Made by a program: the position numbers and the translations under genes | Assembly: GCA_030426245.1 (NCBI GenBank) | Contig: JAUHYZ010000001.1 | Span: forward strand, 186,001 to 250,000 | Reading direction: 5' to 3' | Length of the DNA: 64,000 nt | Source: Alphaproteobacteria bacterium | Lineage (GTDB): Bacteria > Pseudomonadota > Alphaproteobacteria > Sphingomonadales > Sphingomonadaceae | Shown: piece after piece, positions 289 to 23,464 of the stretch | Layout of the letters: the number at the start of each line of letters is the position of its first letter | How positions within the stretch are numbered: the first letter of the stretch is position 1 | The notes under the pieces: model-generated | What the model was told of the DNA's origin: nothing | Seen by the model: the letters and a program-made list of their open reading frames with translations, nothing else | The model's database searches: none

Positions 289-639
289 TAATTTGTGCCA
301 AAATGCCTGTGAGAGGCACCTCGGTGGACAAGGCGCCCTTGATGCAAAATTGCCTCTCGGGACTTTTTTTTGATTCTGAATAAACAATATGCCGAACATG
401 TGGCCTGACTGCAAGCCTTGTGTTGCAATGCAGCACTCCAAATTGACCAATGCAGTTTCAAATCGGGACTGAAACTGCCTCTGGCGCGCGCGTGGATGCG
501 ACTTGCGCGTGCGTTTTCCATCCGGCGTGTCGGATGTGCCGGCTGCCTCAGCAAGAACTGGACATATAAGATAGGCTGACTAGTTAGGTTCCCGAATCTT
601 AGATGATGCCGGCGGCTACACGCCTTTGGGAGCAGGAAA

Positions 640-2427
640 ATGAACGAACAGAGCAACCCGCTTTCCGGCTGGCTCAAGCAATTTGGTACCGCTCTCAACG
701 CGCCGCAGGATGCCGACTGGAGCGAGCTGTTCGTTGAGGACTGCTACTGGCGCGATTTCGTGGCCTTCAGCTGGAATATCGTGACAGTGGAAGGCGTTAA
801 GGGGATCGCGGATATGGCGATGGCCCAGGCAGAGGCGATTGGCGTGCATGCGCTGGAGCCTGACGATCCCGATCTTCCGATGACGGACGAAACGCAGGGA
901 TGGTTCACGTTCGAGACGAGAACCGCGCGTTGCCGCGGCCATGTGCTGTTCGAAGGGGAAAAGGCCAAGGTCCTGTTCACGGCCATTGTCGAGTTGATCG
1001 GCTTCGAAGAACCGGCTGGTAAGCGGCGGCCCTTGGGGGTCGAGCACAAGGCGAAGAAGGGCCGCACCTTCTGGCCGGACCACCGGGCGGAAGAAATCCG
1101 TACACTTGGCCATACCGAGCAGCCTTATTGCCTGATCGTGGGCGGCGGACAGAATGGCCTGCAATTGGCCGCGCGAATGAAGCGCCTCAACGTCCCGACT
1201 CTGGTGGTGGACGCCTTGCCCAATGTCGGGGATTGTTGGCGCGTGCGCTACAAGTCGCTCTATCTTCACGATGCGATTTACATGGATCATTTCCCCTATT
1301 TGCCGTTCCCGGACCACTGGCCGCTTTACACGCCAACCGGCAAGATGGGCGACTGGCTGGAAATCTACGCGAAGGTCATGGAACTGAATGTGTGGAACAG
1401 CACCGTTTGCACCGGCGCCCATTATGGCGAGGCAGCCGGCGAATGGGAGGTGACAGTCGTCAGGGATGGCAAGGAAACGACCTTGCGGCCCAAGCAGCTA
1501 GTGCTGGCAACCGGCCTTTCCGGGGCAAAAAACATGCCGAAGATAAAGGGGATGGAACGCTTCAAAGGGCAGCTCTGCCATTCCGCGGACCACGATTCAG
1601 ACAGCGACGTCGCCGGCAAGAAAGTGGTCGTAATCGGCGCCAACAATTCGGCCCACGATATCTGCACGGATATGTGGGAAGGCGATGCGGACGTCACCAT
1701 GATCCAACGCTCGCCCACGATCATCGTGCGGGCGGAGACCATGCGCGGCTTTTCCGGACAATTGCCATATGCCAATCCGGACATTCCCAGCGAGTTCGGC
1801 GACCTCATGCTGGCGACCACGCCATTCCGCATGCGCTATGAAAGCGAGACGGCGATGACCGAAGCGCTCAAGGAGATCGATGCCGATTTCTACGATCGCC
1901 TGGAAAAGAGCGGTTTCATGCTCAGCCATGGCGAGGACGGCACCGGCTTCCTGATGGCCTATCATCGCCGCGCCGCCGGCTATTACATCGATGTCGGCGG
2001 CTCCGAATTGATTGCCAATGGCGATGTAAAGCTTGCCCAGGGCGAAATCGAGGAGATCACCGAAGACGGTGTGCAGATGGAAGACGGCACCTTCCTTCCG
2101 GCCGATATCATCGTATGCGCCACGGGCTATCGCCCGATGAACGAATTCGTCGGCAGGCTGATCTCTCCCGAAGTGGAAGACAAGGTTGGCCTTTGCTGGG
2201 GCCTGGGTTCCGACACGGAAGGCGATCCCGGCCCATGGGAGGGCGAACTGCGCAACATGTGGAAGCCCACTGCGCAGGAAGGCCTATGGTTCCAGGGCGG
2301 CAATCTCATGCAGTCACGCATCCATTCGCTTCATCTGGGTCTGCAGATCAAGGCACGGATGGAAGGTTTGGAGACGCCGGTCTATCAGCCCGACTTCGCC
2401 AAGCAGCGCGAACCAGCGATCGCCTGA
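640..2427 (+). CDS. Flavin-containing monooxygenase / BVMO-like NAD(P)/FAD oxidoreductase with N-terminal NTF2/SnoaL-like extension
   Basis: GGGQNGLQLA Rossmann motif, FKGQLCHSADH FMO-type signature, GANNSAHD second Rossmann motif, ATGY motif. The first ~125 aa (WSELFVEDCYWRDFVAFSWNIVTVEG) resemble an NTF2-like domain. RBS-like GGAGCAGG upstream. Confidence 0.88.
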   Translation: MNEQSNPLSGWLKQFGTALNAPQDADWSELFVEDCYWRDFVAFSWNIVTVEGVKGIADMAMAQAEAIGVHALEPDDPDLPMTDETQGWFTFETRTARCRGHVLFEGEKAKVLFTAIVELIGFEEPAGKRRPLGVEHKAKKGRTFWPDHRAEEIRTLGHTEQPYCLIVGGGQNGLQLAARMKRLNVPTLVVDALPNVGDCWRVRYKSLYLHDAIYMDHFPYLPFPDHWPLYTPTGKMGDWLEIYAKVMELNVWNSTVCTGAHYGEAAGEWEVTVVRDGKETTLRPKQLVLATGLSGAKNMPKIKGMERFKGQLCHSADHDSDSDVAGKKVVVIGANNSAHDICTDMWEGDADVTMIQRSPTIIVRAETMRGFSGQLPYANPDIPSEFGDLMLATTPFRMRYESETAMTEALKEIDADFYDRLEKSGFMLSHGEDGTGFLMAYHRRAAGYYIDVGGSELIANGDVKLAQGEIEEITEDGVQMEDGTFLPADIIVCATGYRPMNEFVGRLISPEVEDKVGLCWGLGSDTEGDPGPWEGELRNMWKPTAQEGLWFQGGNLMQSRIHSLHLGLQIKARMEGLETPVYQPDFAKQREPAIA

Positions 2428-2486
2428 CGCACCCCTTCCGATCGTTCAGGCGATGGCCCCAATGGGCCAGGTATTCGCCGCTAAGC

Positions 2487-3041
2487 CTATTCGGGATCGA
2501 ACACGCCTTCCGCCATGCGCTTCGCCCATTCCTCGGGTGAAGGCATCAGCGTGATATCGTTGCGTTGGAGGATCTTCCATTTGCCATCCATCCGAACGAA
2601 TTCGTCTTCGTACTGGCCACTAAGCACGGGCGTGGGGCTGCCGTTCCTGCCCCTGATAATGGAGAGCTGGCGCGATTTGGCCGATGCGCGGTCTCCGTCC
2701 AACTCGATCTGGATGTTGGAGACCAGCATGTAGCTGTCTTCATTGACGTAGTCTGCCGGAGTGTCCGGAAACATGTCGACCAGCATGGCCCGTATTTCGG
2801 CCCTTCCGTTCTTGACGATGTCGCCGTTCCGCCACGTACCCTCAGGTGCAAATAGCGCGACATAACCGTCAAAATCGCGGGACGTCAGCCGCACGGCGTA
2901 TTCCTGGATAATGTCCCTGATGGCGGCTTCGTCTTCCAGCCGCTGCAGGCGTTGTTCGACCGTGAGCCGATCATCTTCTGCCTGTGCTGCAATTGGCGTT
3001 ACGATGATTGCGGCGGCAATCAGGCTGCACAGCTTTTTCAT
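2487..3041 (-). CDS. Exported SnoaL/NTF2-like protein
   Basis: MKKLCSLIAAAIIVTPIAAQAEDD signal peptide, then RLQRLEDEAAIRDIIQEYAVRLTSRDFDGYVALFAPEGTW, typical SnoaL_4-type. The ORF extends to 3092, but ATG at 3041 gives the signal peptide. Confidence 0.85.
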   Translation of the reverse strand: MKKLCSLIAAAIIVTPIAAQAEDDRLTVEQRLQRLEDEAAIRDIIQEYAVRLTSRDFDGYVALFAPEGTWRNGDIVKNGRAEIRAMLVDMFPDTPADYVNEDSYMLVSNIQIELDGDRASAKSRQLSIIRGRNGSPTPVLSGQYEDEFVRMDGKWKILQRNDITLMPSPEEWAKRMAEGVFDPE

Positions 3042-3292
3042 ATCTTCTCTCCATTCTTGCCATCGGCTTGGGGCTCTCCGGTGGGTTTTCATCGTGATGC
3101 CCTCGGAGGCGCAAAAGGCGGCATTCTGCGCCAGGCAATTAACGCCCGCTTCGATCCGCTCGCCAGAGCGTTTCCAACATAGTCAAAAAAGAAAGGCAGA
3201 ATGGATCAATCCTATTCCGCTGCCAATGCCATAGTCTGCCCTCCAATGAGAGCGCCGACAGCGCCATCGACATTGGGAAGAGGAATCCGAGC

Positions 3293-5104
3293 ATGCATCT
3301 GGTCAAATCTGTATTGATGGCGGCAAGCGCTGCAACGGCGATTGCCGCGGTCCCTGCGAGCGCACAGCAGGCCGATCAGGAAAGCGCGTTCTACGACGAA
3401 AGCTGCGACCGGGAATGCCTGCTGGGCGTGCTGAAGCAATTCACCGATGCCTTGCGGGCCGGATCGCCATCCGCCGTTCCACTGGCGGACAATTACCGCT
3501 TCACCGAAAACAATGTCGAACTTCCGATCGAGAAGGGGCTGTGGGCAACAATCGACGACCTCTCCGCCGATGCCATGACGGCCGCGGATCCGCAGAGCCA
3601 GAATGCTGCATGGTTCGGTTGGGCGACGGAGAACGGCGATCCCGTGCTCTATGCGGCCAGAATCCATGTTGCGGACGGCAAGATCGACCAGATCGAAACA
3701 GTCGTGCACCGTTATTCGGAAGAACTGCGCGCGCCCTTCGGTGATGTCGAAAAAATGGTTCACGACCCTGCCTGGAACGAAATTCTTCCGCCCGAAGAGC
3801 GCCGTTCCAGAGCGCGCCTCCGTGCGATTGCCGATGCTTATTTCAGCACCGTAGAAATGAATGACGGTGAGGTTTTTGCGCCCTTCGCCGAGGACTGCGG
3901 GCGGCTGGAAAACGGCTTCAGCACAACGACGACCAGTGCCGATACCGGCGGCGAGTCCAACTATGTCGATGGCTGCGAAGAGCAGTTCAAAATGGGTTAT
4001 TACCGGATCAACAAGCGCATCCGGGAACGCCGTTATCCGCTGATCGACGAAGAGCGGGGCATCGTTGTATCCACTGCCTTCTTTGACCATGCGAATGAGT
4101 TCGACCGTTTCCAGCTTACCGACGGGAGCTGGATGGAAACCTGGCTCAAATGGCCCAACTCGATTACCCTGCTAGAAGCCTTTCTTATCAAGGACGGCGA
4201 GATCAGCCGGATCGAGGCGACATTCACTTATGTGCCCTATGCGATGCACAACCCCTGGTTCGGAGAGGCTTCGCGTCCGCCCGAAACCGCTTCCTCGCCC
4301 GAAGAGTGCAACGCAGCCTGCCTCTCCAGCCTCACCGGCCAAGTGATGCAGGCATATGTCAATCGCGGCGAATACAAGTCGCTACCTTGGGCCGATAAGG
4401 TTGGCTACGAGGAAAACAGCGTGGGTATGCAGCTCAACGAAGGCATCTGGGGCTCGACTACAGCGATCGACCAATCGCCCCTCGTGATCGCGGACGAGAC
4501 GCTTGGCCGCGCACTTTGGATCGGCCGGATCGAAGAGCACGGCGCGCCGGCATGGGCCGCCGTCACGGTAAGCGCCGATGGCGACAAGATCGGCCGGATC
4601 GAATCCGTCATCCGCCGAAAGGAATATCTCGGCCCCTATGCCGAACCGGTGACGGCGCCATCATTCGCTCCGCTCTCCGATGCGCAGCGCACTTCGCGGG
4701 TCGACATGCTCGCCGCCGTCGACCGTTTCTACCTCGCAATTGCGGCGGAGAACGGGAGCGCGCCGGCGGATCTTGCAGCAGACTGCAAGTGGGCAGTGAA
4801 CGGGCTCGAATTGTCCGCTTGCGAAGTGCCTTTTTCCAACATGCTTCTTCAGGGGCTGGAGCAGGTGCGAGACCGCAAGGTCATCGCCGTCGATGAAGCG
4901 CGCGGCCTGGTAGCCATTTCCGCTTATGATGACTTCACTGCGCAGCAGCAGGAATTCACGGATGCGCAGGGCAATACTTATGAGGATACGATGCCTTTCC
5001 CGCGCACTTTGCAGGTCGTGGAACTGTTCAGGATCGTGAACGGAAAGATCGCGCGGATCGAAGGCTTCACCTCCGAACTGCCATACGGGATGGGACCGCG
5101 CTGA
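3293..5104 (+). CDS. Exported protein of two ~300-aa homologous units, each probably two NTF2-like domains (di-Cys/FTENN subfamily)
   Basis: Signal peptide ending ASAQQ. Internal repeat CDRECL...FTENNVELPIEKGLWA...AAWFG versus CNAACL...YEENSVGMQLNEGIWGS...ALWIG. Paralogous to 5137-6942. Confidence 0.8.
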   Translation: MHLVKSVLMAASAATAIAAVPASAQQADQESAFYDESCDRECLLGVLKQFTDALRAGSPSAVPLADNYRFTENNVELPIEKGLWATIDDLSADAMTAADPQSQNAAWFGWATENGDPVLYAARIHVADGKIDQIETVVHRYSEELRAPFGDVEKMVHDPAWNEILPPEERRSRARLRAIADAYFSTVEMNDGEVFAPFAEDCGRLENGFSTTTTSADTGGESNYVDGCEEQFKMGYYRINKRIRERRYPLIDEERGIVVSTAFFDHANEFDRFQLTDGSWMETWLKWPNSITLLEAFLIKDGEISRIEATFTYVPYAMHNPWFGEASRPPETASSPEECNAACLSSLTGQVMQAYVNRGEYKSLPWADKVGYEENSVGMQLNEGIWGSTTAIDQSPLVIADETLGRALWIGRIEEHGAPAWAAVTVSADGDKIGRIESVIRRKEYLGPYAEPVTAPSFAPLSDAQRTSRVDMLAAVDRFYLAIAAENGSAPADLAADCKWAVNGLELSACEVPFSNMLLQGLEQVRDRKVIAVDEARGLVAISAYDDFTAQQQEFTDAQGNTYEDTMPFPRTLQVVELFRIVNGKIARIEGFTSELPYGMGPR

Positions 5105-5136
5105 ACGAGCGGCCGAGCAAGGCCGGGGAGAGGATC

Positions 5137-6942
5137 ATGCATCGGCATGGGATGCTGGCATTGGCCGGTCTACTGGCGTTGGCCGCCTCTCCTCTTGCGG
5201 CGCAGCAGCCTGGGCAGAGCAGTGCGGTCTACACCTTTGCCTGCGATCGTGATTGCCTGATCGGCAAGCTGGGCGAGTATATGGACGCATTGGCCGCTCG
5301 CAGCCCTTCCGCGGTCTCCGCGGCGCCGGATATCGTCTTTACCGAGAACAACGTTGTGCTTGAGCTGGGCGAGGGGATCTGGGGCACGGTCACCGGCGTG
5401 GATGATGTCGGGCTTGAAGTGGCCGATCCGCAGACGGGAAATGCCGCGTGGTTCGGTTCGGTGATGGAAAACGGACGCCAGCGAATGTTCGGCTTGCGAA
5501 TTCATGTGACCGATGGCGAAATCGACGAGGCCGAGACCATCGTTGTGCGTTCCATGGATCTCACGCGCCCGTCCCGTCCGGCGGTCCAGTTGCAGCACGA
5601 TCCTGCCTTTTTTGAGATTCTTCCGCCCGCAGAGCGCCGCTCGCGCGAGAGACTGCAACGAATCGCTGACGCTTATTTCGACACCGTGGAACTGAACGAC
5701 GGGCTCGTCTTTGCGCCTTTCGACGAGGATTGCGGAAGACTGGAGAATGGCCGCAGTACCACCAGCAAGGCAGACCCCAATGGCTCTTTCGGCGCCGTGT
5801 CGATCGTCGAGGGGTGCGAGGCACAGTTCGAACTCGGCATCTACCGGATCAACAAGCGTGTCCGCGAACGCCGCTTTCCATTGATCGACACTGAGCGGGG
5901 AATCGTTGTCGCGACGGCATTCTTCGACCATGCCAACGAGTTCGATCGGTATCTGCTGACCGACGGGCGCGAAATGGAGACGGCGCTGAAATGGCCAAAT
6001 TCCGTTACGCTGCTAGAAGCCTTTCGCATAAGGGACGCCAAGATCCACCGGATTGAAGCGGTGTTCACCTATGCCCCCTATTTCATGCACAACCCGTTTG
6101 CTGGGCCTGCAGCTCCCTTGCCTCAGCACGCGCCGAAGCCTGAGAAGTGCGGCGATGCCTGTCTTGCCGCTCTGACCGAGCAGGTGATGGCAGCCTACGT
6201 CTCGAAGGATTGGCAATCGCTCCCCTGGGCCGAAAACGTGGCCTATAGCGATGAGAATGTCGGGCTGCAGGTGGGCGAGGGTATCTGGGGCACGATCACC
6301 GCGATAGACGACAAGCCGCTGATTGTCGCCGACGGCCAAACGGGCAAGTCGGTCTGGTTCGGGAGAATCGAGGAACACGGCCAGCCGGCCTGGGCAGCCA
6401 TTGCTGTGCAGGGAGCGGGCGAGAGAATCGGCGGAATCGATACGCTGGTCCACCGCAAGGAATACGGCGTGCCCTATGTCGAGCCGGGCTCTATGCCGTC
6501 CTTTTCCGTCCTGTCGGAGGCCAGGCGCACCTCGCGCGGCGAGATGTTGGCGGCAGTCGATGCCTTCTACGCAGCCGTCAACAGTCATGACGGCACGGTG
6601 CCTGCTGCGATCGGCGGCGATTGCCGCTGGGTCGTGAATGGGCAGGATTTGAACCAGTGCACCGCGCCCTTCGCGGGCAACCTGCTTCAGTCGATCAAGG
6701 AAGTGCGCGATCTCGACGTGCTCGCGGTCGATGAGGAGCGCGGACTGGTGGTCGCAACCGGTTTCAAGGATTGCCCGGCGAACCCGCTCGAATTCACCGA
6801 CAGTTCGGGCAAGGCCTATCGTGATCGGGCCGAAGCGCCGCGCACCTTGAGGTTTGTCGAACTTTTCCGGTTCGAAGCGGGCAGAATTCGCCATGTCGAG
6901 GGATACACGTTGCAGCTGCCATACGGCATGCCTCCGCGATAG
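5137..6942 (+). CDS. Exported paralogue of the preceding gene (two ~300-aa units)
   Basis: Shared CDRDCL, FTENNVVLELGEGIWG, AAWFG, LENGRST, YRINKRVRERRFPLID, ERGIVVATAFFDHANEFD, LKWPNSVTLLEAF and PYGMPPR motifs. Confidence 0.8.
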   Translation: MHRHGMLALAGLLALAASPLAAQQPGQSSAVYTFACDRDCLIGKLGEYMDALAARSPSAVSAAPDIVFTENNVVLELGEGIWGTVTGVDDVGLEVADPQTGNAAWFGSVMENGRQRMFGLRIHVTDGEIDEAETIVVRSMDLTRPSRPAVQLQHDPAFFEILPPAERRSRERLQRIADAYFDTVELNDGLVFAPFDEDCGRLENGRSTTSKADPNGSFGAVSIVEGCEAQFELGIYRINKRVRERRFPLIDTERGIVVATAFFDHANEFDRYLLTDGREMETALKWPNSVTLLEAFRIRDAKIHRIEAVFTYAPYFMHNPFAGPAAPLPQHAPKPEKCGDACLAALTEQVMAAYVSKDWQSLPWAENVAYSDENVGLQVGEGIWGTITAIDDKPLIVADGQTGKSVWFGRIEEHGQPAWAAIAVQGAGERIGGIDTLVHRKEYGVPYVEPGSMPSFSVLSEARRTSRGEMLAAVDAFYAAVNSHDGTVPAAIGGDCRWVVNGQDLNQCTAPFAGNLLQSIKEVRDLDVLAVDEERGLVVATGFKDCPANPLEFTDSSGKAYRDRAEAPRTLRFVELFRFEAGRIRHVEGYTLQLPYGMPPR

Positions 6943-7422: not shown

Positions 7423-9942
7423 ATGAAAATATCAGGGAGCATGGGCCGCCATCGGTCTCGTTTGGCGTTGATGTCCGTGACTGGAATTGCCACTGTCATG
7501 ACGGCAACGCCCGCAATCGCGCAAGACGAAGCCAACGACGGTAACATTATCGTTGTGACCGCTCAGATGCGTGAGCAGGATGTTCAGGACATTCCGCTGT
7601 CCATTACCGCAGTCAGTGGCGAGATGCTGGAAGCCCGCGGGCAGACGCGCCTCGACGACATCAGTGCGCAGGTTCCGAACGTTCTGCTGCAGCAGAACCC
7701 GCCCGGATCGGGTAACTCGATGCGTGCGTATATCCGCGGCGTCGGACAGGGCGACTTGAGCCCGTCCGTTGAACCGGGCGTCGGCATTTACGTCGATGAC
7801 ATCTATTTTGGTACGGTGACGGCTTCCGCGTTCGACCTGACTGACCTTGAGCGTGTTGAAGTTCTTCGCGGTCCGCAAGGCACGCTCGCGGGCATGAACT
7901 CGCTGGGCGGTGCAATTAAGCTGTATTCGAAGAAGCCGCGAGGCGAAGGCGGCTATGTCGAAATCACTGCCGGCTCTCTTGGCCGCCGTGATATCAAGGC
8001 CAGCGCCGACTTTACGATTGTCGAAGACGCTGTCTTTGCTCGCGTCACGGGTGTGACGCGGAACAGAGACGGCTATGTGACGATGTATGACTATGCCTGC
8101 GTCAATCCGGACGATCCTTATGTCCAGCCGGGCACGAGCATCATAGCCGAGGGCCAGTCCGCAATCCCGAGGCTGTCTTCGGGTGGCGATTGTAAAATTG
8201 GCGAGCTGGGCGACCAGAGAATGTACGCGGTGCGTGGTACTTTGAGTATCGCACCTGTTGGAAGCCCGCTCGAAATCAATGTGACCGCCGACTATACGAA
8301 GGACACTTCGGCCACGCAGGCTTCGACGCTGATTGCCAGTGCCGAACTCACTGGTCTTGAGAACAACCCCGTTGCATATCAAGGGGCCCCTTATGACGAT
8401 CGCTTCGTCACCTACGGCCAATATCGTCGGCCAGGTGCGGCGCTCAACGATCCCTTTGCGACATACGCAAACTTCTATGATCCGGGTGTGACCTACAGGG
8501 CTGCGGATGCCGGATCTGGTCCGCCTACCACAGTGACTCCGGGTGCGCCGAATGGCCCGCTCATCTCCGAACCTGGCAGTCAGGTTGAAGGCTGGGGTAT
8601 CGCCGGTACGATTGACTACGAGTTGAGCGACCAGCTCGCGCTCAAGTCGATCACTGGCTATCGGACCTATGATTCCTATAGCTCGAGCGACAACGACAAC
8701 TCACCGATCGCCTTTATCGGCGGTGCTCCGTCGCTGTTTTACCATAACCAGTTCAGTCAGGAAGTCCGGCTGAGCGGGAATCTTATGGAAGATACGGTGC
8801 ACTTCACGGTTGGCGGCATCTACTACGATGCAGACACTCGTTACGATGCTCTGATCCATACGCCGTTCTCAGGCTTCTCCAGCGACCCTGCGAAGCCAAC
8901 CTTCTCCTTCATCAACGACGACACAGCGAGCCTCACCGCCAAGGCGGGCTTCGGTAATGTCGCATGGGACGTGACCGAGCAGCTCACCATTGAGGGCGGT
9001 ATCCGCGTTACTCATGAGAAGAAGGATTATCTGTACAAGCGTCTGAACCCGGATGGCGATGGCGAGTACCTGCCGCTCAGCAATCCGCTGAATCCTCTCA
9101 CTGGCCAAGTTGGTACCTATGAAGAGACTGTCACCGACTATCGCGGTGTCGTTTCCTACAAGGTTACGCCGGATGTGATGTTCTATGCGCAGTATGCAAC
9201 CGGGTTCAAAGGCGGCGGTGTCTCACCGCGTCCATATAGCTTCTATCAGATCCGCTCCTTCCCGGCCGAGAAGCTGAAAGCCTACGAAGCAGGCTTCAAG
9301 GCAGACGTTCTGGACCGTCGTGTGCGGATCAACGGCTCTGCGTTCTACATGGACTATATCGACTATCAGGGTACGCCGAATGTCTGCATTGGCGACGACG
9401 GCAATCCGTTGCCTGTCGATCAGGGCGGTGTCCCGGGCCTCTGCGGCCAGTACCTGAATGTCGGCGACGCTCGTGTGCAAGGCTTCGAGCTTGAAGTCTT
9501 CCTCGAGCCAGTTGACGGCTTCAACATTGACGGTGCGCTTAGCCTTACCGACTTCGAGTTTACCTCGACCAACTACAACACCAATGAAATCCAGGTCGGG
9601 TCAAGCCGTCCGGGTATCGGTGATTGGAAGTGGAGCATTGGCGCTCAATATGAGGCCGATCTTGGTAACGCCGGGTCTCTGACCCCTCGTTTCGACGTTG
9701 CTTATACGCCTGGCTATTGCGGTGACTTCGCGTGTACTCCTGTTGCGATCAACGATAGTCACACGATCGCCAATGCCAAGCTTACCTATCAGACATTGGA
9801 CAAGGACTGGACTGCGTCTCTCGAAGTCCGGAATGTGTTCGATAACTTCTATTATATCAACAAGTTCACCAATCGCTGGTATGCAACGGGTCAACCCGGC
9901 ATGCCGCGCACTTGGGCGGTTTCGGTGCGGCGCAATTTCTGA
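7423..9942 (+). CDS. TonB-dependent outer-membrane receptor
   Basis: Signal peptide, TonB-box-like IIVVTAQ, plug domain (RLDDISAQVPNVLLQQ...YIRGVGQG...VEVLRGPQGTLAGMNSLGGAI), C-terminal ...WAVSVRRNF. Confidence 0.95.
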   Translation: MKISGSMGRHRSRLALMSVTGIATVMTATPAIAQDEANDGNIIVVTAQMREQDVQDIPLSITAVSGEMLEARGQTRLDDISAQVPNVLLQQNPPGSGNSMRAYIRGVGQGDLSPSVEPGVGIYVDDIYFGTVTASAFDLTDLERVEVLRGPQGTLAGMNSLGGAIKLYSKKPRGEGGYVEITAGSLGRRDIKASADFTIVEDAVFARVTGVTRNRDGYVTMYDYACVNPDDPYVQPGTSIIAEGQSAIPRLSSGGDCKIGELGDQRMYAVRGTLSIAPVGSPLEINVTADYTKDTSATQASTLIASAELTGLENNPVAYQGAPYDDRFVTYGQYRRPGAALNDPFATYANFYDPGVTYRAADAGSGPPTTVTPGAPNGPLISEPGSQVEGWGIAGTIDYELSDQLALKSITGYRTYDSYSSSDNDNSPIAFIGGAPSLFYHNQFSQEVRLSGNLMEDTVHFTVGGIYYDADTRYDALIHTPFSGFSSDPAKPTFSFINDDTASLTAKAGFGNVAWDVTEQLTIEGGIRVTHEKKDYLYKRLNPDGDGEYLPLSNPLNPLTGQVGTYEETVTDYRGVVSYKVTPDVMFYAQYATGFKGGGVSPRPYSFYQIRSFPAEKLKAYEAGFKADVLDRRVRINGSAFYMDYIDYQGTPNVCIGDDGNPLPVDQGGVPGLCGQYLNVGDARVQGFELEVFLEPVDGFNIDGALSLTDFEFTSTNYNTNEIQVGSSRPGIGDWKWSIGAQYEADLGNAGSLTPRFDVAYTPGYCGDFACTPVAINDSHTIANAKLTYQTLDKDWTASLEVRNVFDNFYYINKFTNRWYATGQPGMPRTWAVSVRRNF

Positions 9943-10000: not shown

Positions 10001-10035
10001 ATTGCATTTGGAATGATGTGAAACGAGAGAGGGCT

Positions 10036-13124: not shown

Positions 13125-13321
13125 TCCTCTCCCATTGTTCCTTGCCGGCAAGGTGGCAGCGGGCAATGCGGCTGTCATTGTTCGAATTGTCTTGCCGGCT
13201 TGGCTCACATGGAAGCGGCATTGCGCTTGAGGGTATCGTACAACTAGGTTTCTGCCGCGTAATCACACCCTGGGCGATTGGGCGGTAACGGCCCGAAGCA
13301 TCGAGAATGGAGACGGATGAA

Positions 13322-13906: not shown

Positions 13907-13936
13907 GCTTGCCGGACTGAAGAGCCCAGCAATCGA

Positions 13937-14365: not shown

Positions 14366-14567
14366 GGGTGTATCCGGAGTTCCCTCGCTGTTTGAGCGGG
14401 CTGGATACCGCGCGATTGCAGGGTTGCCAAAGTACGCGGCCAATCCGGTCTACCTGCGTAGCCAGATCGGTCTACCGGAAACCGGGAAATCCCGGTTTAT
14501 TGAGCAGCAACGGCGAACTACATCAGAATAAGCCAGCCGGCTGCAATTCAGCCGCGTGGGAGAGAAC

Positions 14568-15086
14568 ATGTCCGATGAAGCAAGACCGCCCCACTCGGGG
14601 GCGGCACAATCCATTGAAGAACGCCTGCGCGCACTGGAAGACGAGCGCGAGATTCGCGATCTCATCATCACCTATGCGCAGCGGCTCGATGCCCGCGACC
14701 ACAAGGGATACGCGCAGCTTTTTGCGCAGGAAGGGCGCTGGTCCGGACGGATGGGAGACGCGACCGGCCCCGAGGCGATCGAGGAGATGCTGGTCGAAGG
14801 GTTCGGCCCCACGCCCGAGAATTTCGTCAACACCCAGAACTTTCACCTGATGAGCAACATCGTCATCGAAGTGGATGGAGACCGTGCAAAGGCGGAATCC
14901 CGCCTCGTCTATTTCGTGCGCACGGCCGAAGCGAAGCCGACGGCCATGCTTGCCGGTCGGTATTACGATGAGCTGGTGCGCGAAGACGGGCGTTGGCGCT
15001 TTTCCTATCGCCGCGTGGTCGGCGAGATACCGACCCGCGAAGAACGCCCAGTCAGAACACCGGAGGAAGATGGACATGTCCGCTGA
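14568..15086 (+). CDS. SnoaL/NTF2-like protein (cytosolic)
   Basis: MSDEARPP...RLRALEDEREIRDLIITYAQRLDARDHKGYAQLFAQEGRWSG; RBS GGGAGAGAAC. Confidence 0.85.
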   Translation: MSDEARPPHSGAAQSIEERLRALEDEREIRDLIITYAQRLDARDHKGYAQLFAQEGRWSGRMGDATGPEAIEEMLVEGFGPTPENFVNTQNFHLMSNIVIEVDGDRAKAESRLVYFVRTAEAKPTAMLAGRYYDELVREDGRWRFSYRRVVGEIPTREERPVRTPEEDGHVR

Positions 15087-15729
15087 GCGGCAAGAACGTA
15101 TCGAAGCGCGCATCGCGCAGCTGAATGCAGAGATGCAGAAGCGCGAGGACTACCAGGCAATCATACGCCTGCAGAGGGCCTACGGCTTTTACATCGACAA
15201 GGGATATTGGCGGGAGGCCAGCGACCTTTTCACCGAAGACGCCACTTACGAACAGGGCGTCGATGGCGTCTTTATCGGCCGCGAACGAATCCACCAGGTT
15301 ATCGTAAAGCTCTCCGGCGGCAATCCCGGTCCGGGGCTGCCTTTCGGCCAGCTATACGAGCGCTTTCAGCTTCAGCCGGTGATCACGGTCTCCGATGACG
15401 GCCAGAGTGCCTTTGGCCGCTGGCACGAACTTGCGATGCTTGGCCAGTATGGCGAACATGCCGAATGGGGGGAGGGCGTCTACGAAAACCGTTATCGTAA
15501 GGAAGGTGGCGTCTGGAAGATCTCCGCGTTGCACTACTTTCCCAACTTCGTGGCCCCGTATGAAGGCGGCTGGGCAGTGCTCAAGCCGGTCGAAGGTGAC
15601 TGGCGCTCACCTGAATTGGCCGACTTTCCACCCGATGCACCGCCCACGGTGAACTACAAGCCATTTCCGGACCAATTCACGGTGCCGTTCCACTATCCCC
15701 ATCCCGTGACCGGAAAGGCGGTGGCGTAA
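15070..15729 (+). CDS. SnoaL/NTF2-like protein, PNPVTG subfamily (cytosolic)
   Basis: MDMSAERQERIEARIAQLNAEMQKREDYQAIIRLQRAYGFYIDKGYWREASDLFTEDATYEQG...FHYPHPVTGKAVA. Overlaps the upstream CDS end. Confidence 0.85.
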   Translation: MDMSAERQERIEARIAQLNAEMQKREDYQAIIRLQRAYGFYIDKGYWREASDLFTEDATYEQGVDGVFIGRERIHQVIVKLSGGNPGPGLPFGQLYERFQLQPVITVSDDGQSAFGRWHELAMLGQYGEHAEWGEGVYENRYRKEGGVWKISALHYFPNFVAPYEGGWAVLKPVEGDWRSPELADFPPDAPPTVNYKPFPDQFTVPFHYPHPVTGKAVA

Positions 15730-17066
15730 TGAGTGAACATCTGCTCGACGCGCTGGAAGCGCATCTCGATTCCATCGAGCTCAGGATCGCCCGCCAGGCC
15801 TCTCACGAGGCGATAGAGCGGCTTCAGCGCTCATACTGCTATTTCATCGACAAAGGGCTCTGGACGGCCGCCTCAGACCTTTTCGCAGACGATGCGACGG
15901 GGGAATGGGGGCAGAGCGGTGTATACAGGGGCAAGGAACGCATTCGCTCCTATCTCGCCCTGCGCGGGCCGGAAGGCCTCGGTCAAGGCGAGCTCAATAC
16001 CCATATCACATGTCAGGCAATCATTACCGTTGCCGATGACAACATGTCTGCCAAGGCGCGCTGGCGCAGTGACAATATGCATTGCACCGATGGCACTGGC
16101 AGTTGGAGCGAAGGGACCTACGAAAATATCTACGTCAACGATGGCGGTGTCTGGAAGATCGCTTCCATGCACTATTACGTCACGCTGATCTGCGATTACG
16201 ACAAGGGATGGATCGCTGGCGATATTCCCATGGACCCGCCCAGCGAAACGCTGCCGCCGGATGCCCCGCCGACGGAGGTTTATGAATCACTGCCTGGGGC
16301 CTATTTGCCGGCCTACCATTATCCCAATCCCGTGACCGGCGAACAGCCGAAGAAGCCCGACCTTCCCGAATTGCCGGAAAGCGGCGAGGACACGCTGGCC
16401 GATGCAGTTGCGGCGCTTTCCACCAGGGTCGAACGGCTCGAAGATCAGCGGGCCTGCGAGAAGCTTCAGCGCAGCTATGGCTTCTATGTCGACAAAGCGA
16501 TGTGGAACGATGTGTCCGATCTCTTCGTCGATGATTCAACGCTGGAAATCGGTGGCCGCGGCGTATTCCTGGGCAAGAAGCGCGTGCTTGAATATATGGG
16601 CATCGGCCTGGGCCCCACGGGTCCGCAACGCGAACAGGTCATCAACCACCAGCAGTTTCAGGGCATCGTCACCGTTGCCGAAGACGGCAAGACTGCACGC
16701 GGGCGTTGGCGCGCATTCGTCATTGGCGGCAGCTCATGGGCGCCGGTCAATTGGGGCGATTGCCTGTATGAGAACCATTACAAGAAGGTGGACGGCGTCT
16801 GGGTCATGGACAAGCTCCATGCCCCCTTCACAATGTACACGCTCTATACAGACGGATGGCACAAGGCGACCACGCCTAATACGCGGCCCGAGAGTTTCCC
16901 GCCGCCACCCGATCTTGCGCCCACAGTGGTCTATCTGACCTATCCCAACTATTATTGTGAGCCGTTCCATTATCCTAACCCGGTGACTGGAAAGGAAGCG
17001 CCGCCGCCCAATCCTGCAGCGGGAGGAGTGGCCAATATGGCGGACTTCGCCAGCGAAGAGAGTTGA
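15729..17066 (+). CDS. Tandem two-domain SnoaL/NTF2-like protein, PNPVTG subfamily (cytosolic)
   Basis: Two copies of LQRSYxFYxDKxxW...DLFxDD...ending YHYPNPVTGEQ and FHYPNPVTGKE. TAATG overlap with the preceding gene. Confidence 0.85.
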   Translation: MSEHLLDALEAHLDSIELRIARQASHEAIERLQRSYCYFIDKGLWTAASDLFADDATGEWGQSGVYRGKERIRSYLALRGPEGLGQGELNTHITCQAIITVADDNMSAKARWRSDNMHCTDGTGSWSEGTYENIYVNDGGVWKIASMHYYVTLICDYDKGWIAGDIPMDPPSETLPPDAPPTEVYESLPGAYLPAYHYPNPVTGEQPKKPDLPELPESGEDTLADAVAALSTRVERLEDQRACEKLQRSYGFYVDKAMWNDVSDLFVDDSTLEIGGRGVFLGKKRVLEYMGIGLGPTGPQREQVINHQQFQGIVTVAEDGKTARGRWRAFVIGGSSWAPVNWGDCLYENHYKKVDGVWVMDKLHAPFTMYTLYTDGWHKATTPNTRPESFPPPPDLAPTVVYLTYPNYYCEPFHYPNPVTGKEAPPPNPAAGGVANMADFASEES

Positions 17067-17072
17067 ACGGGA

Positions 17073-18449
17073 GTGAGCTCTCCCCCGGACTTTTCGGTCA
17101 AAGCCGCTGAGACGTCAGGCAATGTCGACGCGCTGATCGATCTGCCGCGGCTGACCGGGCTGCAGATCGGACTGTTCCTGATTTGTGCTTTCGTGCTGTT
17201 CGCCGAAGGCTACGATTTGCAGGCGCTGGCGCTAGCTGTGCCGCAGATTTCCGGCGAGTTCGGCATTCCGCCGGAGGATTTCAGCCTGGCCCTTTCCGCC
17301 AGCCTGCTGGGCATGGCGCTGGGCGGGGCAGGCTTCGCGCCTATGGGTGACAGGATCGGGCGAAAGCCGATGCTGATCCTGGCCATGGTGCTGACGGGCG
17401 GGAGCACGCTGGGTGCGCTGATCTATCCGACCACCTATTGGATCGCCTTTTGCCGGCTGATCACAGGGATCGGGCTGGGTATCACCACGGTCAATGCATC
17501 GGCTATCATGAGCGATTATGCGCCAGCCAGATGGCGGTTCATGATCATGACGGTCGTCAATTGCTCGGTTCCGCTCGGTGCTTTCAGCGCGGCCATGATC
17601 GCTCCGGACATTATCGAGCATATGGGATGGCGCGGCATCTTCTGGATCGGCGGCTGGGTTCCGCTGGTGGCGGCAGCGGTCGTCTGGCTGGTAATGCCGG
17701 AATCGCTCAAATGGCTCGTTGCCGTGCGCCCCGGCGATCGGCGCATCGCGCGGATTGCCCGCTCCATTGCGCCGGGCATCGATCCTGCGCGGCTGTTCCT
17801 CTCCGAACGCGAGGAGCATACCCGTCAATCGGTACTCGGCCTGATGTCCCCCAATCACCGCATCCGGACCCTGGTTGCGTGGCTTGGCACTGCGGCAGGC
17901 GCCTTCTGCCTCTACATGATGATTTCCTGGCTGCCGACCGTACTGCGTGAAGCGCAATGGAGCACAACCGACGCCTTGCGCGGAACCGCAGCAGTCCAGC
18001 TGGGCGGTATCTTCGGCGGGTTGCTGATCGCCTGGGCGATCGACCGGCGTTGGCTCGTGGCGGCAATTGTGGCCGGTTATGGCGTATCCTCGCTCGGCTT
18101 GCTCAGCATCGGTCTGCTGCCAGAAAGCGTGCTTGGCTGGCAGTTCCTGCTGTTGCTTGTCGGGGCGGGCATATCCGGCATGCAGGGGATATGGATGTCG
18201 ATCGCGGTCGGTCTCTATCCGCTCGAATTGAGGGCGACCAGTGCCGGCTGGATGGCGGCTATCAGCCGTATCGGAGCCGTATCGGCACCCTTCGCCGGGG
18301 GATTGGCGGTTGCCGCGAGTATGGAGGCCAGAAACCTGTTGATGGCGTTGGTTGTCCCGATCGGGGCAACCGTCATCGCAGTGGTGCTGGCGCGCAAACA
18401 TTTCGTTCCGCCGCCGCCGGTGGTGGAAGAAGGAGATAAAGCCGAATGA
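17073..18449 (+). CDS. MFS transporter, aromatic acid:H+ symporter-like
   Basis: About 12 hydrophobic segments. FAEGYDLQALALAVPQI near the first TM, GDRIGRKPMLI MFS loop motif. GTG start. Confidence 0.88.
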   Translation: MSSPPDFSVKAAETSGNVDALIDLPRLTGLQIGLFLICAFVLFAEGYDLQALALAVPQISGEFGIPPEDFSLALSASLLGMALGGAGFAPMGDRIGRKPMLILAMVLTGGSTLGALIYPTTYWIAFCRLITGIGLGITTVNASAIMSDYAPARWRFMIMTVVNCSVPLGAFSAAMIAPDIIEHMGWRGIFWIGGWVPLVAAAVVWLVMPESLKWLVAVRPGDRRIARIARSIAPGIDPARLFLSEREEHTRQSVLGLMSPNHRIRTLVAWLGTAAGAFCLYMMISWLPTVLREAQWSTTDALRGTAAVQLGGIFGGLLIAWAIDRRWLVAAIVAGYGVSSLGLLSIGLLPESVLGWQFLLLLVGAGISGMQGIWMSIAVGLYPLELRATSAGWMAAISRIGAVSAPFAGGLAVAASMEARNLLMALVVPIGATVIAVVLARKHFVPPPPVVEEGDKAE

Positions 18450-19012
18450 ATGAACAGGAAATGGCGGCGTTGGCGGCCGATATCCGCTATCTCAGGGATC
18501 GGGCAGACATTCTCGATTGCATGAACCGATATACGCGCGGCGCGGATCGGCTCGACCGCGATCTTCTGCTGTCCGCCTATCATCCAGACGCCACCGACGA
18601 TCGCGGCGCGTTTACGGGCGGCCCCGAAGCACGGGTCGACTGGTTGCTGGCCTATCTCAGAACTCTCGATCACACGACCCACCACATCACCAATTTCACT
18701 TTCGATATCGATGGCGATGTCGCGCACTGCGAAAGCTATGTCCTCACCACCCTGCTGCCAGCCGGATCGAAGGAGGCCACGATCGGCTGTGCACGCTATA
18801 TCGACCGGTTCGAGCGGCGCTCCGGCGAATGGAAGATCGCCCACCGCGAAGCGGTGATGGACTTCAACTTCACTGTGCCCACAAGTGAGCTTCCGCCCAA
18901 AGTGCTCAGCGGTGCCAGGGACCGAACCGACAGGTCCTATGCCCGGCCGCTGGAACTCTCCGCCGAAGGGCTGGCCAGGATGCAGGCAGGGCTCAATTCG
19001 CCTGCGGACTGA
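18446..19012 (+). CDS. SnoaL/NTF2-like protein
   Basis: IRYLRDRADILDCMNRYTRGADRLDRDLLLSAYHPDATDDRGAFTGGPEARVDWL, SnoaL_4-like. ATGA overlap with the MFS gene. Confidence 0.85.
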   Translation: MNEQEMAALAADIRYLRDRADILDCMNRYTRGADRLDRDLLLSAYHPDATDDRGAFTGGPEARVDWLLAYLRTLDHTTHHITNFTFDIDGDVAHCESYVLTTLLPAGSKEATIGCARYIDRFERRSGEWKIAHREAVMDFNFTVPTSELPPKVLSGARDRTDRSYARPLELSAEGLARMQAGLNSPAD

Positions 19013-19236: not shown

Positions 19237-20196
19237 TTGTCGCAAGTCACAGATAGACCTTGCGAATTTCTGCGTCCCCTTGTCGATTTGAGCAATGTCG
19301 AACAAGGTGACCGGGCGCTGACGTGGGACGTCGCGGTTCGCAATACATTTCCCGGATTATCGGTAAAGCTGGAGAGCGGCGGCGTTTCTTTCGGCTCGAT
19401 CAACTGTATGCCGATTGGATCCGGTCAGCTTTTCCAGATCGATTCCGAGCCTGCGCTTGTCAGTTTCCGTCCTCCCAAGATGGAAACGATTGTCCCGCAT
19501 TTCTCGCTGATGGTTCAGTCCAAAGGCACGATGGTCGCAAGCCAGGCGGGCCAGGTCTGCATGTTGGGCGAGGGCGACCTTTGCATGATCGACGAGGCGA
19601 AGGCGTTTCGCCTGACTGGCGAGGAACGGACCGAGTTTCTGCTGCTGAGGTTGCCGCGCGCTGCGGTGCTCAGCCGGTATCCGCATCTTGAACGCGTGAT
19701 CGCCAGCACTCTTTCCGGCCACGAACCGGGAACCAAGCTGCTCAGCGAAACATTGCTGCGCCTGGCCAGCGAGGCGGGTCTGCTGCAGGACCTTCAGCGA
19801 AGTGCGATGATGAATGCCATCATTCACATGCTGGGCGTGGCGGAACCCTTCCTGGGTCTGCCTGCCGGTGCAGATTGGCGTGTGCGCCGCGCGCTCGACT
19901 ATATCGAGCTCAATCTGTCGGTTGCCGGCCTGACGGCGGAAGTCGTGGCTCAGGACCAGCATATCAGCCGCCGCCGGTTGGACCAGTTGATGCACGATGC
20001 TTTCGGCCATTCCATCGCAAGCCATCTTTGGAGCCGAAGGCTGGAGCAAGCGGCTGCAGATTTGCGCGATCCCCACCGTTCGGACTTGTCGATTGCACAA
20101 ATAGCCTTCGCGAACGGCTTCGAGGATGCGGCCCATTTTACACGGGCTTTCAAGCGCAAATATCGCATCACACCGGGGCAATGGCGCCTGAACTGA
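19237..20196 (+). CDS. AraC-family transcriptional regulator
   Basis: C-terminal HTH: LTAEVVAQDQHISRRRLDQLMHDAFGHSIASHLWSRRLEQAAADLRDPHRSDLSIAQIAFANGFEDAAHFTRAFKRKYRITPGQWR. TTG start after GGAGGAGA. Confidence 0.9.
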   Translation: MSQVTDRPCEFLRPLVDLSNVEQGDRALTWDVAVRNTFPGLSVKLESGGVSFGSINCMPIGSGQLFQIDSEPALVSFRPPKMETIVPHFSLMVQSKGTMVASQAGQVCMLGEGDLCMIDEAKAFRLTGEERTEFLLLRLPRAAVLSRYPHLERVIASTLSGHEPGTKLLSETLLRLASEAGLLQDLQRSAMMNAIIHMLGVAEPFLGLPAGADWRVRRALDYIELNLSVAGLTAEVVAQDQHISRRRLDQLMHDAFGHSIASHLWSRRLEQAAADLRDPHRSDLSIAQIAFANGFEDAAHFTRAFKRKYRITPGQWRLN

Positions 20197-20340: not shown

Positions 20341-21096
20341 ATGAGGCATTCAACTCTCGCATCCACGGGATTGCTCCGGGCTGCTCTCGCTCCGATCAAG
20401 ATCGCGGCGCTCGCTGCACCCGCCTTCCTGCTGGCGCCCCAAGCCGCCCATGCGCAAAGCGCCATCGATCAGGAAATCGACGCACTGACGACGCGTGTCG
20501 AAGTGCTTGAAGGCAATCGCGCAGTGAAGAAGCTGCAGCGCGCCTTCGGTTTCTATGTCGACCGCGGGCTTTGGGGCGAAGCTGCCGACTTGTTCGCCGA
20601 CAATGGCACGATCGAGATCGGGCTGGACGGCGTCTATGTTGGCAAGGACCGGATCGAGGAATATCTGCGCCGCCTGCATGGCGGGCAGGAGGGGCTCATC
20701 TACGGCCAGCTCAACGAATGGGTGACGCTGCAGCCGGCCATTTCTGTGGCTGCCGATGGCCGCTCCGCAACTGCGCGCTGGCGCGACAATGGCATGCTTG
20801 GCCAGTACAAGGAGCATGCCGAATGGCGCGATGGCATCTACGAAAATACCTATGTGAAGGAAGACGGGATATGGAAAATCCAGTCCCTGCACCTCTACGT
20901 GAATTTCCTGGCGCCCTTTGAAGAGGGCTGGGCGCGCCTTGAGCCGGGCGAAGGGCTTAAGCCGAGCGAAACCTCCAAGTCGTTCCCGCCCGATCGCGGG
21001 CCCAGTGTAAACTACAAGCCGTTTCCCGATGTGCAGATTCCGCCGTTCCAGGCGCCCAATCCGGTGACCGGCCAACCTGTGAAAGGAGCGATGTGA
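20341..21096 (+). CDS. Exported SnoaL/NTF2-like protein, PNPVTG subfamily
   Basis: Signal peptide ...APQAAHAQS; LQRAFGFYVDRGLWGEAADLFADNGTIEIGLDGVYVGKDRI...QAPNPVTGQPV. Confidence 0.85.
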   Translation: MRHSTLASTGLLRAALAPIKIAALAAPAFLLAPQAAHAQSAIDQEIDALTTRVEVLEGNRAVKKLQRAFGFYVDRGLWGEAADLFADNGTIEIGLDGVYVGKDRIEEYLRRLHGGQEGLIYGQLNEWVTLQPAISVAADGRSATARWRDNGMLGQYKEHAEWRDGIYENTYVKEDGIWKIQSLHLYVNFLAPFEEGWARLEPGEGLKPSETSKSFPPDRGPSVNYKPFPDVQIPPFQAPNPVTGQPVKGAM

Positions 21097-21863
21097 TGCG
21101 CACAGGCAAAAAGCTCCTGCAGCTTTGCTGCATTGCCGCGGTAGGGCTGACGCCGCTGACACTTGCGGCGCCTGCCACGGCCCAATCTGTGGAGGCACGC
21201 CTTGCGGCCTATCGTGAACGTGTCGAGCGTTTGGAGGACCAGGCAGCGATCGAAAATCTCCAGGCGAGCTTCGGCTATTATTTCGACAAGGGCCTGTGGG
21301 ATGAAGCAGCCTCACTGTTCGCCGATAACGGCACCTACGAATATGAGCAGCAAGGCGTCTATGTCGGCAAGGATCGTATCCAGCGTGCAATGTTGCTCCT
21401 GGGGCCGCAAGGACTGGCGCCGGGCTATCTCAACAATCACATGATGCTGCAGAACGTCATTATCGTCGACGATGACGGGCAAACGGCGACTGGACGCTGG
21501 CAGGGGCCGATCCAGCTTGCCGAACCGGGGGCCAATGGCGAATGGGCAGTCGGCATCTATGAGAACGAATATGTGAAGGAAGGCGGCGTCTGGAAGATTT
21601 CCAAGCTGCACTTCTATCTGACCGCGAAAACGGACTACGATCGGCCCTATTCCACCGGGGCACTGCCGATGCAGGGACAGAGCGCTCTGTTCCCGCCCGA
21701 TCGTCCGCCAAGCGAAGTCTATCGCAGCTTCCCGGCCGCCTACATTCCACCGTTCAGCTTCAAGCATCCGGTGACGGGTGAGCCGCTGACCGGCCTGCCG
21801 ATGGCAGGCGACGATGTCGTGGGGCGTGCGCCGATCGAATTCGAAGACGAAGCGGGCGAATGA
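21093..21863 (+). CDS. Exported SnoaL/NTF2-like protein, PVTG subfamily
   Basis: Signal peptide ...APATAQS; LQASFGYYFDKGLWDEAASLFADNGTYEYEQQGVYVGKDRI...FKHPVTGEPL. GTGATG start overlapping the upstream stop. Confidence 0.85.
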   Translation: MMRTGKKLLQLCCIAAVGLTPLTLAAPATAQSVEARLAAYRERVERLEDQAAIENLQASFGYYFDKGLWDEAASLFADNGTYEYEQQGVYVGKDRIQRAMLLLGPQGLAPGYLNNHMMLQNVIIVDDDGQTATGRWQGPIQLAEPGANGEWAVGIYENEYVKEGGVWKISKLHFYLTAKTDYDRPYSTGALPMQGQSALFPPDRPPSEVYRSFPAAYIPPFSFKHPVTGEPLTGLPMAGDDVVGRAPIEFEDEAGE

Positions 21864-22663
21864 TGCTTCGCAGGATTGCTTCTGCCGCATCTCGCGCTGC
21901 GCTTGCAGCCCCCTTGCTGCTTCTCGCTGCGCCTGCGGCCGCGCAGTCGGCGAGCGAGCGCCTCGACGAGCTGGATGCGCGAATATCCCGTCTGGAGGAT
22001 ATGAACCAGATCGAGCGGGTTCAGCGCACCTACGGATATTTCGTCGACAAGGGGCAATGGACCCCCTTGGCCGAACTGTTCACTGAAGATGCCACGCTGG
22101 AAATCGGAGGAAAAGGCATCTTTCTGGGGCGTGACCGCGTGCTGGAATATATGCAGACCGCATTCGGTAAGGATGGCGCGGGCGAGGGGCGCCTGGGCAA
22201 CCACATGCAGTTCCAGCCCATCCCAGACATCTCGCCGGACGGTGAAACCGGATGGATCCGATCGCGAGCCTACGTGATGAGCGTCGGCTGGGGACTGCCG
22301 CTTTACGAAAATGAATATGAGAAGGGCGAAGACGGCAAATGGCGGATCAGCCGTCTGACCGGGCCCTTCACGATGTACACAAGCTGGGAAGGCTGGGGCA
22401 AATGGGCCATGAACAACACCTGGCCCGACAAATTCGATCCGCCGCCGGATCTGCCGCCGTCGGTCGTCTATCTGACCTATCCGTCCTATTACATCATCCC
22501 ATTCCATTATCCGAACCCGGTGACGGGGGAGCCCTTCATTCCCGATACGGGAGAAGTCGGGGCCTATCACCGGCCGCCCGGTAATGCGGAACAGGCCGCG
22601 TCGCTTAATGTGGCACGCACGGTCAACGGGACTCAACCGATCGCCGAACCTCCAAGGGACTGA
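21860..22663 (+). CDS. Exported SnoaL/NTF2-like protein, PNPVTG subfamily
   Basis: Signal peptide ...AAPAAAQS; VQRTYGYFVDKGQWTPLAELFTEDATLEIGGKGIFLGRDRV...FHYPNPVTGEPF. Confidence 0.87.
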   Translation: MMLRRIASAASRAALAAPLLLLAAPAAAQSASERLDELDARISRLEDMNQIERVQRTYGYFVDKGQWTPLAELFTEDATLEIGGKGIFLGRDRVLEYMQTAFGKDGAGEGRLGNHMQFQPIPDISPDGETGWIRSRAYVMSVGWGLPLYENEYEKGEDGKWRISRLTGPFTMYTSWEGWGKWAMNNTWPDKFDPPPDLPPSVVYLTYPSYYIIPFHYPNPVTGEPFIPDTGEVGAYHRPPGNAEQAASLNVARTVNGTQPIAEPPRD

Positions 22664-23464
22664 GTGATGGCCAGGAACAGACTTTTTTCCGGTTTGGGAA
22701 CTGCGGCAATGCTGGCGGTAGCTGCAATGCCCGCGCAGGCGCAAACTGCTGGCGAGAGACTTGATGCGCTCAATGAGCGGATCGAGCGGCTCGAAGGCAT
22801 GAACCAGATCGAGCGCCTGCAGCGGACCTATGGCTATTTCGTCGACAAGGCGCAGTGGTCCCAGCTTGCCGAGCTATTCACGGAAGACGCGACGTTGGAA
22901 ATCGGCGGCAAAGGACTGTTCGTCGGCAAGGACCGAGTGCTTGCCTATATGCAGGAATCCTTTGGCAAGGACGGCATCCGGCCCGGCGTGCTCATCAATC
23001 ACATGCAGTTTCAGCCGATCCCCGATATCTCGGCCGATGGTAACACCGGCTGGCTGCGCCAGCGCGCCTATGTGATGGCGAATGGCGGCTGGGGCTTGCC
23101 GCTCTACGAAAACGAATATGAGAAGGGTGAGGATGGCATCTGGCGCATCAGCCGGTTGACCGGACCTTTCACCATGTACACGAACTGGGAAGGGTGGGGG
23201 AAGAACGCCACGAATAACACCTGGCCGGACAAGTTCGGGCCACCACCGGATTTGCCGCCATCGGTCGTCTATCTGACCTATCCAGGCTATTATATTGTTC
23301 CGTTTCATTATCCCAATCCCGTTACCGGCAAGGCCTTCATCCCCGATACCGGCGAAGTGGGCGCCTATCACAGGCCCCCCGGCACTGCGGAACAGGAAGC
23401 CGCGTTGAAGGTTGGGCGTACGGTGCATGGCACGCAGCCGATCATGGAACCACCACGGGATTGA
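22664..23464 (+). CDS. Exported SnoaL/NTF2-like protein, close paralogue of the preceding gene
   Basis: Near-collinear with 21860-22663: NQIERLQRTYGYFVDKAQWSQLAELFTEDATLEIGGKGLFVGKDRV...FHYPNPVTGKAFIPDTGEVGAYHRPPG. Confidence 0.87.
   Translation: MMARNRLFSGLGTAAMLAVAAMPAQAQTAGERLDALNERIERLEGMNQIERLQRTYGYFVDKAQWSQLAELFTEDATLEIGGKGLFVGKDRVLAYMQESFGKDGIRPGVLINHMQFQPIPDISADGNTGWLRQRAYVMANGGWGLPLYENEYEKGEDGIWRISRLTGPFTMYTNWEGWGKNATNNTWPDKFGPPPDLPPSVVYLTYPGYYIVPFHYPNPVTGKAFIPDTGEVGAYHRPPGTAEQEAALKVGRTVHGTQPIMEPPRD

Follow-up and report, generated by a model that had tools for sequence, protein, structure and literature searches.

A sphingomonad gene island rich in NTF2-like proteins as a possible transport-and-lyase part of an aromatic catabolic system

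The stretch of DNA analysed here (the window, 64,000 nucleotides; G000:C60:186001-250000 in our collection) comes from a sphingomonad genome assembly of 3.0 Mb that is 79% complete and stands closest, among named genomes, to those labelled Altererythrobacter, Croceibacterium, Aurantiacibacter and Novosphingobium. At its left end, positions 289-23464 hold an island of genes for SnoaL/NTF2-like proteins together with a TonB receptor, a lipoprotein hydrolase, a major facilitator superfamily (MFS) permease and an AraC regulator (Table 1). All of these had been listed in an original prediction made from the letters alone; the LysR regulator also listed there is absent from 289-23464, and a LysR gene lies at C60:184423-185937, ending 63 bp short of the window's left edge. 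Here we describe how the NTF2-like proteins sort into an exported trio (A, B and C) related to the lyase LdpA and a leaderless counterpart of that trio, and we propose a possible role for the island in the breakdown of a multi-ring aromatic compound.

Results

All 15 coding sequences that the original prediction had called NTF2-like (named here by their start positions) proved to be so, 11 by a Pfam match and four by a structure model and homology. SnoaL_4 (PF13577) is found in those 11 with E-values of 8e-20 to 1.5e-47, and twice in 15729, giving 12 domains. The remaining four (3293, 5137, 11224 and 12150) had no credible Pfam match even at E<=10. The AF2 model of 5137 (alignment A1, 20 homologues; pLDDT 82.6, pTM 0.82) reveals four consecutive helix-plus-curved-sheet units (~38-137, 170-313, 340-440 and 467-595), and in Foldseek searches individual units resemble polyketide cyclases, limonene epoxide hydrolase and ketosteroid isomerases. 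We count 3293 (56% identity to 5137), 12150 (50%) and 11224 (37%, the latter two against the N-terminal half) as NTF2-like because they are homologues of 5137. With the N-terminal domain of the flavin monooxygenase (FMO), the island carries ~25 NTF2-type domains per 23 kb (12 SnoaL_4, 12 of the unnamed family, one in the FMO). The clustering greatly exceeds random expectation: 12 of the 39 SnoaL_4 matches in the genome fall inside 21 kb of its 3.0 Mb, with ~0.3 expected by chance.

The 15 proteins divide by their computed N-termini, which we judged by an N-terminal hydropathy heuristic (an 11-residue stretch) and not by SignalP. Ten (2487, 3293, 5137, 11224, 12150, 13307, 20341, 21093, 21860 and 22664) have exported-type N-termini, a hydropathic stretch (mean hydropathy >=1.96) followed by an A-x-A-like site; for 11224 and 12150 the signal-like N-terminus requires an internal start codon. 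Five (13937, 14556, 15070, 15729 and 18446) are leaderless (mean hydropathy <=1.08). This division matches conserved gene blocks, and the cytosolic block 14556-15070-15729-MFS-18446 is also present in two related loci (L055 and L056).

The closest characterized relatives of A (20341), B (21093) and C (21860 and 22664) are LdpA, an erythro-diarylpropane gamma-formaldehyde lyase, and its homologue PcfL, from Novosphingobium and Sphingobium, which act on lignin dimers (PMC12997858, PMC11323797). The best Foldseek match of the B model is NaLdpA (8ABT; E 1.3e-18, 37% identity, TM 0.74 on the target), and NaLdpA and SpLdpA are the top structural and sequence matches of B, with the LdpA C-terminal tail included. 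A SnoaL_4 domain with an LdpA-like C-terminal tail is present in A, B and C, and likewise in the leaderless A' (15070), B' (15729, domain 1) and C' (15729, domain 2). The proteins differ from LdpA and PcfL in being exported, in forming an operon of three fixed paralogues of which one lacks the catalytic His, in their identity of 34-41%, and in the linkage of such trios to pyrroloquinoline quinone (PQQ) dehydrogenases in relatives.

A degradation pathway for steroids, bile acids or terpenoids, with the NTF2 proteins as dehydratases of the BaiE/SteC type, is in our judgement unlikely. BaiE shares the SnoaL_4-type NTF2 fold and ranks second among the PDB families matched by B, and the steroid dehydratase SteC is NTF2-type as well; but LdpA, which has the C-terminal tail in common with B, is clearly nearer (E 1e-29 vs 3e-6 for BaiE in the sequence search), the BaiE match lacks that tail, and BaiE and SteC are single-gene enzymes. 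The linked loci that were scanned showed no genes for steroid ring cleavage. A BaiE-type dehydratase class was rejected for B, the trio member searched, since LdpA is closer.

The active site of LdpA comprises 11 residues by the count quoted in PMC11323797, and a substrate-bound structure exists for the NaLdpA H97Q mutant (8ABU). Asp40 (NaLdpA numbering) is kept in 51 of 51 aligned rows. His97 is found in all 34 rows of B, C, B' and C' and in none of the 14 rows of exported A, which have Trp or Phe there instead. The A' of the window has Arg at this position; its orthologs in L055 and L056 have His. This pattern bears on another reading, in which the exported NTF2 proteins are periplasmic ligand carriers or chaperones and no enzymes. 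NTF2 pockets bind hydrophobic ligands, the exported proteins are numerous, and the catalytic His is missing from exported A and from 2487; yet the Asp-His dyad, needless for carriers, is present without exception in B, C, B' and C', and we hold this reading to be improbable.

A tree of 77 SnoaL_4 domains places the LdpA-type proteins apart from the short ones. A, B and C form separate deep clades, each spread across many genera, and are therefore not recent tandem copies; they are ancient paralogues of LdpA. The sole younger duplication within the trio is the C pair 21860/22664. The gene order A-B-C is identical in 21 other genomes, and the order of A', B' and C' mirrors it. Support for A with A' and for C with C' is 100/99 in each case, a topology uniting all cytosolic proteins is rejected (p 1e-18), and profile scores follow the A/A', B/B', C/C' diagonal in both directions, B' being best matched by the B profile.

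These trees also speak to the possibility of mere tandem expansion, in which members of a family abundant in sphingomonads sit side by side without joint action. The 39 SnoaL_4 matches in the source genome, the recent C duplication and the 62 NTF2 homologues of SYK-6 (PMC12997858) are in keeping with it, but the fixed order of A-B-C and the dehydrogenase PQQ2 (described below), the mirrored A'-B'-C' and the deep orthologous clades make it quite improbable. The conserved order weighs against tandem expansion as the whole account; it may hold for 2487, 13307 and 13937.

Related exported chains of 640-750 amino acids contain three SnoaL_4-type (LdpA-type) domains each. Such chains occur at L101:2094-4199 and 4204-6315 (G140), where they adjoin a TonB receptor, and in L117-L128, with at least 12 relatives in the family. 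The ~700-amino-acid fusions could not be assigned domain by domain to A, B and C: in most cases the central domain matches B best, and the others are ambiguous. A leaderless 468-amino-acid protein with three short SnoaL_4 domains lies behind two FMO/Baeyer-Villiger-like genes at L011:10558-11964 (C25).

The neighbourhood is conserved across relatives, a point that the original prediction had left to be checked: beyond the A-B-C order, both the linkage of the trio to PQQ2 and that of D4 (the exported quadruple-NTF2 protein) to a second dehydrogenase, PQQ1, were found. PQQ2 is the next system gene after C in 20 of 20 loci that extend past C (of the 21 other genomes); over the 8 kb read at the truncated beginning of contig G140:C15, an additional A-B-C-C array shows no PQQ2 gene. 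Upstream of A there is usually a strictosidine-synthase/gluconolactonase-like beta-propeller protein, and further along in many relatives an AraC regulator and a TonB receptor, sometimes the hydrolase, and then PQQ1 and D4. Of the 35 D4 loci found by a genome-wide scan, 29 have D4 and PQQ1 as immediate neighbours, and five more have a PQQ dehydrogenase within ~10 kb. The quadruple-NTF2 family is rare, with 6 of 399 genomes phylum-wide (E<=0.001) vs 31 of 201 in its own family; in non-sphingomonad Proteobacteria, D4 loci show 42-61% identity and D4, propeller and PQQ genes are rearranged. At one such locus, in a Proteobacteria metagenome-assembled genome, a gene of the RPE65/lignostilbene-dioxygenase family directly follows D4 (L082:12017-13453).

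In the source genome these elements share one contig, with the island at 186.6-209.5 kb, PQQ1-D4 at 297-301 kb and propeller-PQQ2 at 332.7-335.8 kb; the original prediction could not see the two dehydrogenases and the propeller protein because they are encoded outside the stretch. The PQQ2 of the source genome itself, used as query, matches type II quinohemoprotein alcohol dehydrogenases (1KV9, 1YIQ) over its full length, cytochrome domain included. It differs from that type in lying outside the island and in its pairing with NTF2 proteins, which we did not find described. In the open-access literature we found no paper that treats SnoaL or NTF2 proteins jointly with PQQ and TonB genes, and the conserved A-B-C/PQQ system is apparently undescribed so far.

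The matches of D4 to cyclases and epoxide hydrolases would also suit a biosynthetic cluster with NTF2 polyketide cyclases. No synthase was seen in the island or its flanks, however, and the TonB receptor, the exported enzymes and the PQQ dehydrogenases indicate uptake and breakdown, so that we give biosynthesis very little credence.

Among the other island genes, orthologs of the TonB receptor are 64-73% identical and linked in relatives, and the hydrolase has a lipobox and orthologs of 69-70% identity in L063 and L065. TonB receptors for lignin dimers are known in Sphingobium (PMC6874591). The 2487-type gene adjoins a quadruple-NTF2 gene in L061 as well, and the best matches of 14556 are Rv3472 and the scytalone-dehydratase-like 3EF8. 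As the original prediction had noted, the FMO has an NTF2-like N-terminus: this type II enzyme matches JsFMO (8ACS) end to end, and the N-terminal domain of JsFMO is a solved SnoaL-like fold (PMC10028610). Its LHD and GYY motifs align with the catalytic His-216, Asp-217 and Tyr-458 (by an inferred numbering offset of 16), and no difference of kind from JsFMO was seen. We dropped the FMO as a pathway member, finding no ortholog near the conserved genes in related loci. Three full-length RPE65-family genes occur in the source genome; two have a SnoaL_4 gene no more than 3 kb away, and none lies inside the island. This is the family of the lignostilbene dioxygenases, which act after LdpA.

To the right of the island, positions 23560-63591 form a large surface-polysaccharide region with glycosyltransferases, a Wzc-like kinase, a flippase, and 3-deoxy-D-manno-octulosonic acid (KDO) and capsule-export genes (translations judged by eye). 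On the left flank (L009, C60:166001-186000), an operon-like set reaching the window edge comprises a luciferase-like monooxygenase, a UbiD-/UbiX-like decarboxylase pair, a cyclic amidohydrolase, an M20 amidohydrolase, an oligopeptide-type ATP-binding cassette transporter and a divergent LysR gene; it looks like a set for N-heterocycle breakdown. Genes for a trimethylamine monooxygenase-like FMO, a DUF1989/GCV_T fusion and glutamate-synthase-like and glutamine-synthetase-like proteins (L014 14252-17821 and L009 526-5545) probably serve methylamine use.

Table 1. Genes of the island in window coordinates. Four starts of the open-reading-frame list should be shifted to those of the original prediction (13307 to 13322, 14556 to 14568, 14875 to 15070, 20251 to 20341).
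Feature	Position	Strand	Basis
Type II flavin monooxygenase, SnoaL-like N-domain	640..2427	+	JsFMO 8ACS E 4e-194; edge gene
Short exported SnoaL_4 protein without Asp-His dyad	2487..3092	-	PF13577 1.6e-23; alignment
D4 copy 1, exported 600-aa (amino acid) quadruple-NTF2 protein	3293..5104	+	56% to 5137; alignment A1
D4 copy 2, exported 600-aa quadruple-NTF2 protein	5137..6942	+	AF2, Foldseek, neighbourhoods
TonB-dependent receptor	7423..9942	+	Pfam Plug and barrel matches
Lipoprotein alpha/beta-hydrolase, PETase/lipase-like	10018..11034	+	2fx5 lipase 8.5e-16, PETases
d2, exported double-NTF2 protein	11224..12279 (true start probably near 12150)	-	37% to 5137 N-half; 67% ortholog in L057
d2, exported double-NTF2 protein	12150..13208	-	50% to 5137 N-half; 76-77% orthologs in L057/L058
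Short exported SnoaL_4 protein	13307..13906	+	PF13577 2.7e-27
Short leaderless SnoaL_4 protein	13937..14443	-	PF13577 5.8e-24; N-terminus not signal-like
Short leaderless SnoaL_4 protein, opens cytosolic block	14556..15086	+	PF13577 2.3e-29
A', leaderless counterpart of A, LdpA type	15070..15729	+	Clade support, profile scores
B'-C' fusion, two leaderless LdpA-type domains, both with Asp-His dyad	15729..17066	+	Two SnoaL_4 matches
MFS permease, nearest aromatic acid/H+ symport type	17073..18449	+	TIGR00895 251 bits, cut-off 418
Short leaderless SnoaL_4 protein, closes cytosolic block	18446..19012	+	PF13577 8.9e-21
AraC-family regulator	19237..20196	+	HTH_18, AraC_binding_2; linked near A-B-C in relatives
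A, exported LdpA-type subunit, His97 to Trp	20341..21096	+	PF13577; His column
B, exported LdpA-type subunit, Asp-His dyad present	21093..21863	+	AF2; Foldseek best match NaLdpA 8ABT
C copy 1, exported LdpA-type subunit, dyad present	21860..22663	+	PF13577; clade C
C copy 2, exported LdpA-type subunit, dyad present	22664..23464	+	PF13577; clade C

Discussion

We propose, with a probability of roughly 45%, that the island supplies the transport and lyase functions of a system that breaks down a multi-ring aromatic compound, probably of plant origin. The original prediction had suggested a pathway that imports and remodels a hydrophobic ligand with NTF2 proteins split between periplasm and cytosol; uptake and the split (10 vs 5 coding sequences) hold up, and the FMO falls outside the conserved neighbourhood. 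By analogy with LdpA and the permease type, both of which it fits, an aromatic multi-ring substrate appears likelier than a steroid or terpenoid.

In the order of steps that we infer, the TonB receptor would bring the compound into the periplasm, where the lipoprotein hydrolase may release it from an ester. PQQ1 and PQQ2, type II quinohemoprotein dehydrogenases encoded elsewhere on the contig, would oxidize a hydroxyl group, D4 presumably working with PQQ1. The exported A, B and C, possibly as one mixed trimer with A non-catalytic or altered, would carry out a cofactor-free elimination (of the dehydration, deformylation or retro-aldol type) via the Asp40-His97 dyad. The MFS permease would pass the product into the cytosol, where A' and B'-C' may continue the same chemistry.

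Several observations weigh against this proposal. Both dehydrogenases lie ~100-150 kb from the island in the source genome and not inside it. Sharing 34-41% identity with LdpA does not by itself determine the reaction, the substrate is putative, and BaiE and LinA, also within reach, act on steroids and chlorinated rings. The permease scores below the TIGR00895 family cut-off, and the grouping of B with B', although not rejected (p-AU, approximately unbiased test, 0.43), is unsupported as a clade.

Trimeric assembly is known from LinA and scytalone dehydratase. It is also seen in the crystal structure of BaiE, which shares the SnoaL_4-type fold (PMC13101464). We tentatively suggest, at less than even odds, that A, B and C are obligate partners in one heterotrimeric NTF2 enzyme that evolved from a homotrimeric lyase, A having decayed to a non-catalytic subunit, that the module was copied whole to a cytosolic form (A' plus the fused B'-C'), with related single ~700-amino-acid chains of three such domains elsewhere, and that the enzyme works with the quinohemoprotein dehydrogenases on the imported compound. 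This idea draws on the three fixed paralogues, the B'-C' fusion and the triple-domain relatives, the traces that a mixed trimer would leave.

In sum, NTF2-type lyases have recently been shown to cleave lignin dimers, and amid dozens of uncharacterised sphingomonad homologues the analysis singles out a sorted, conserved NTF2 set whose partners are named and whose catalytic role can be clearly predicted. It would place NTF2-lyase chemistry in the periplasm, coupled to PQQ dehydrogenases, and may offer a case of the passage from homotrimer to heterotrimer, which would show in unfused genes, in a partly fused set and, among related proteins, in chains with all three domains joined.

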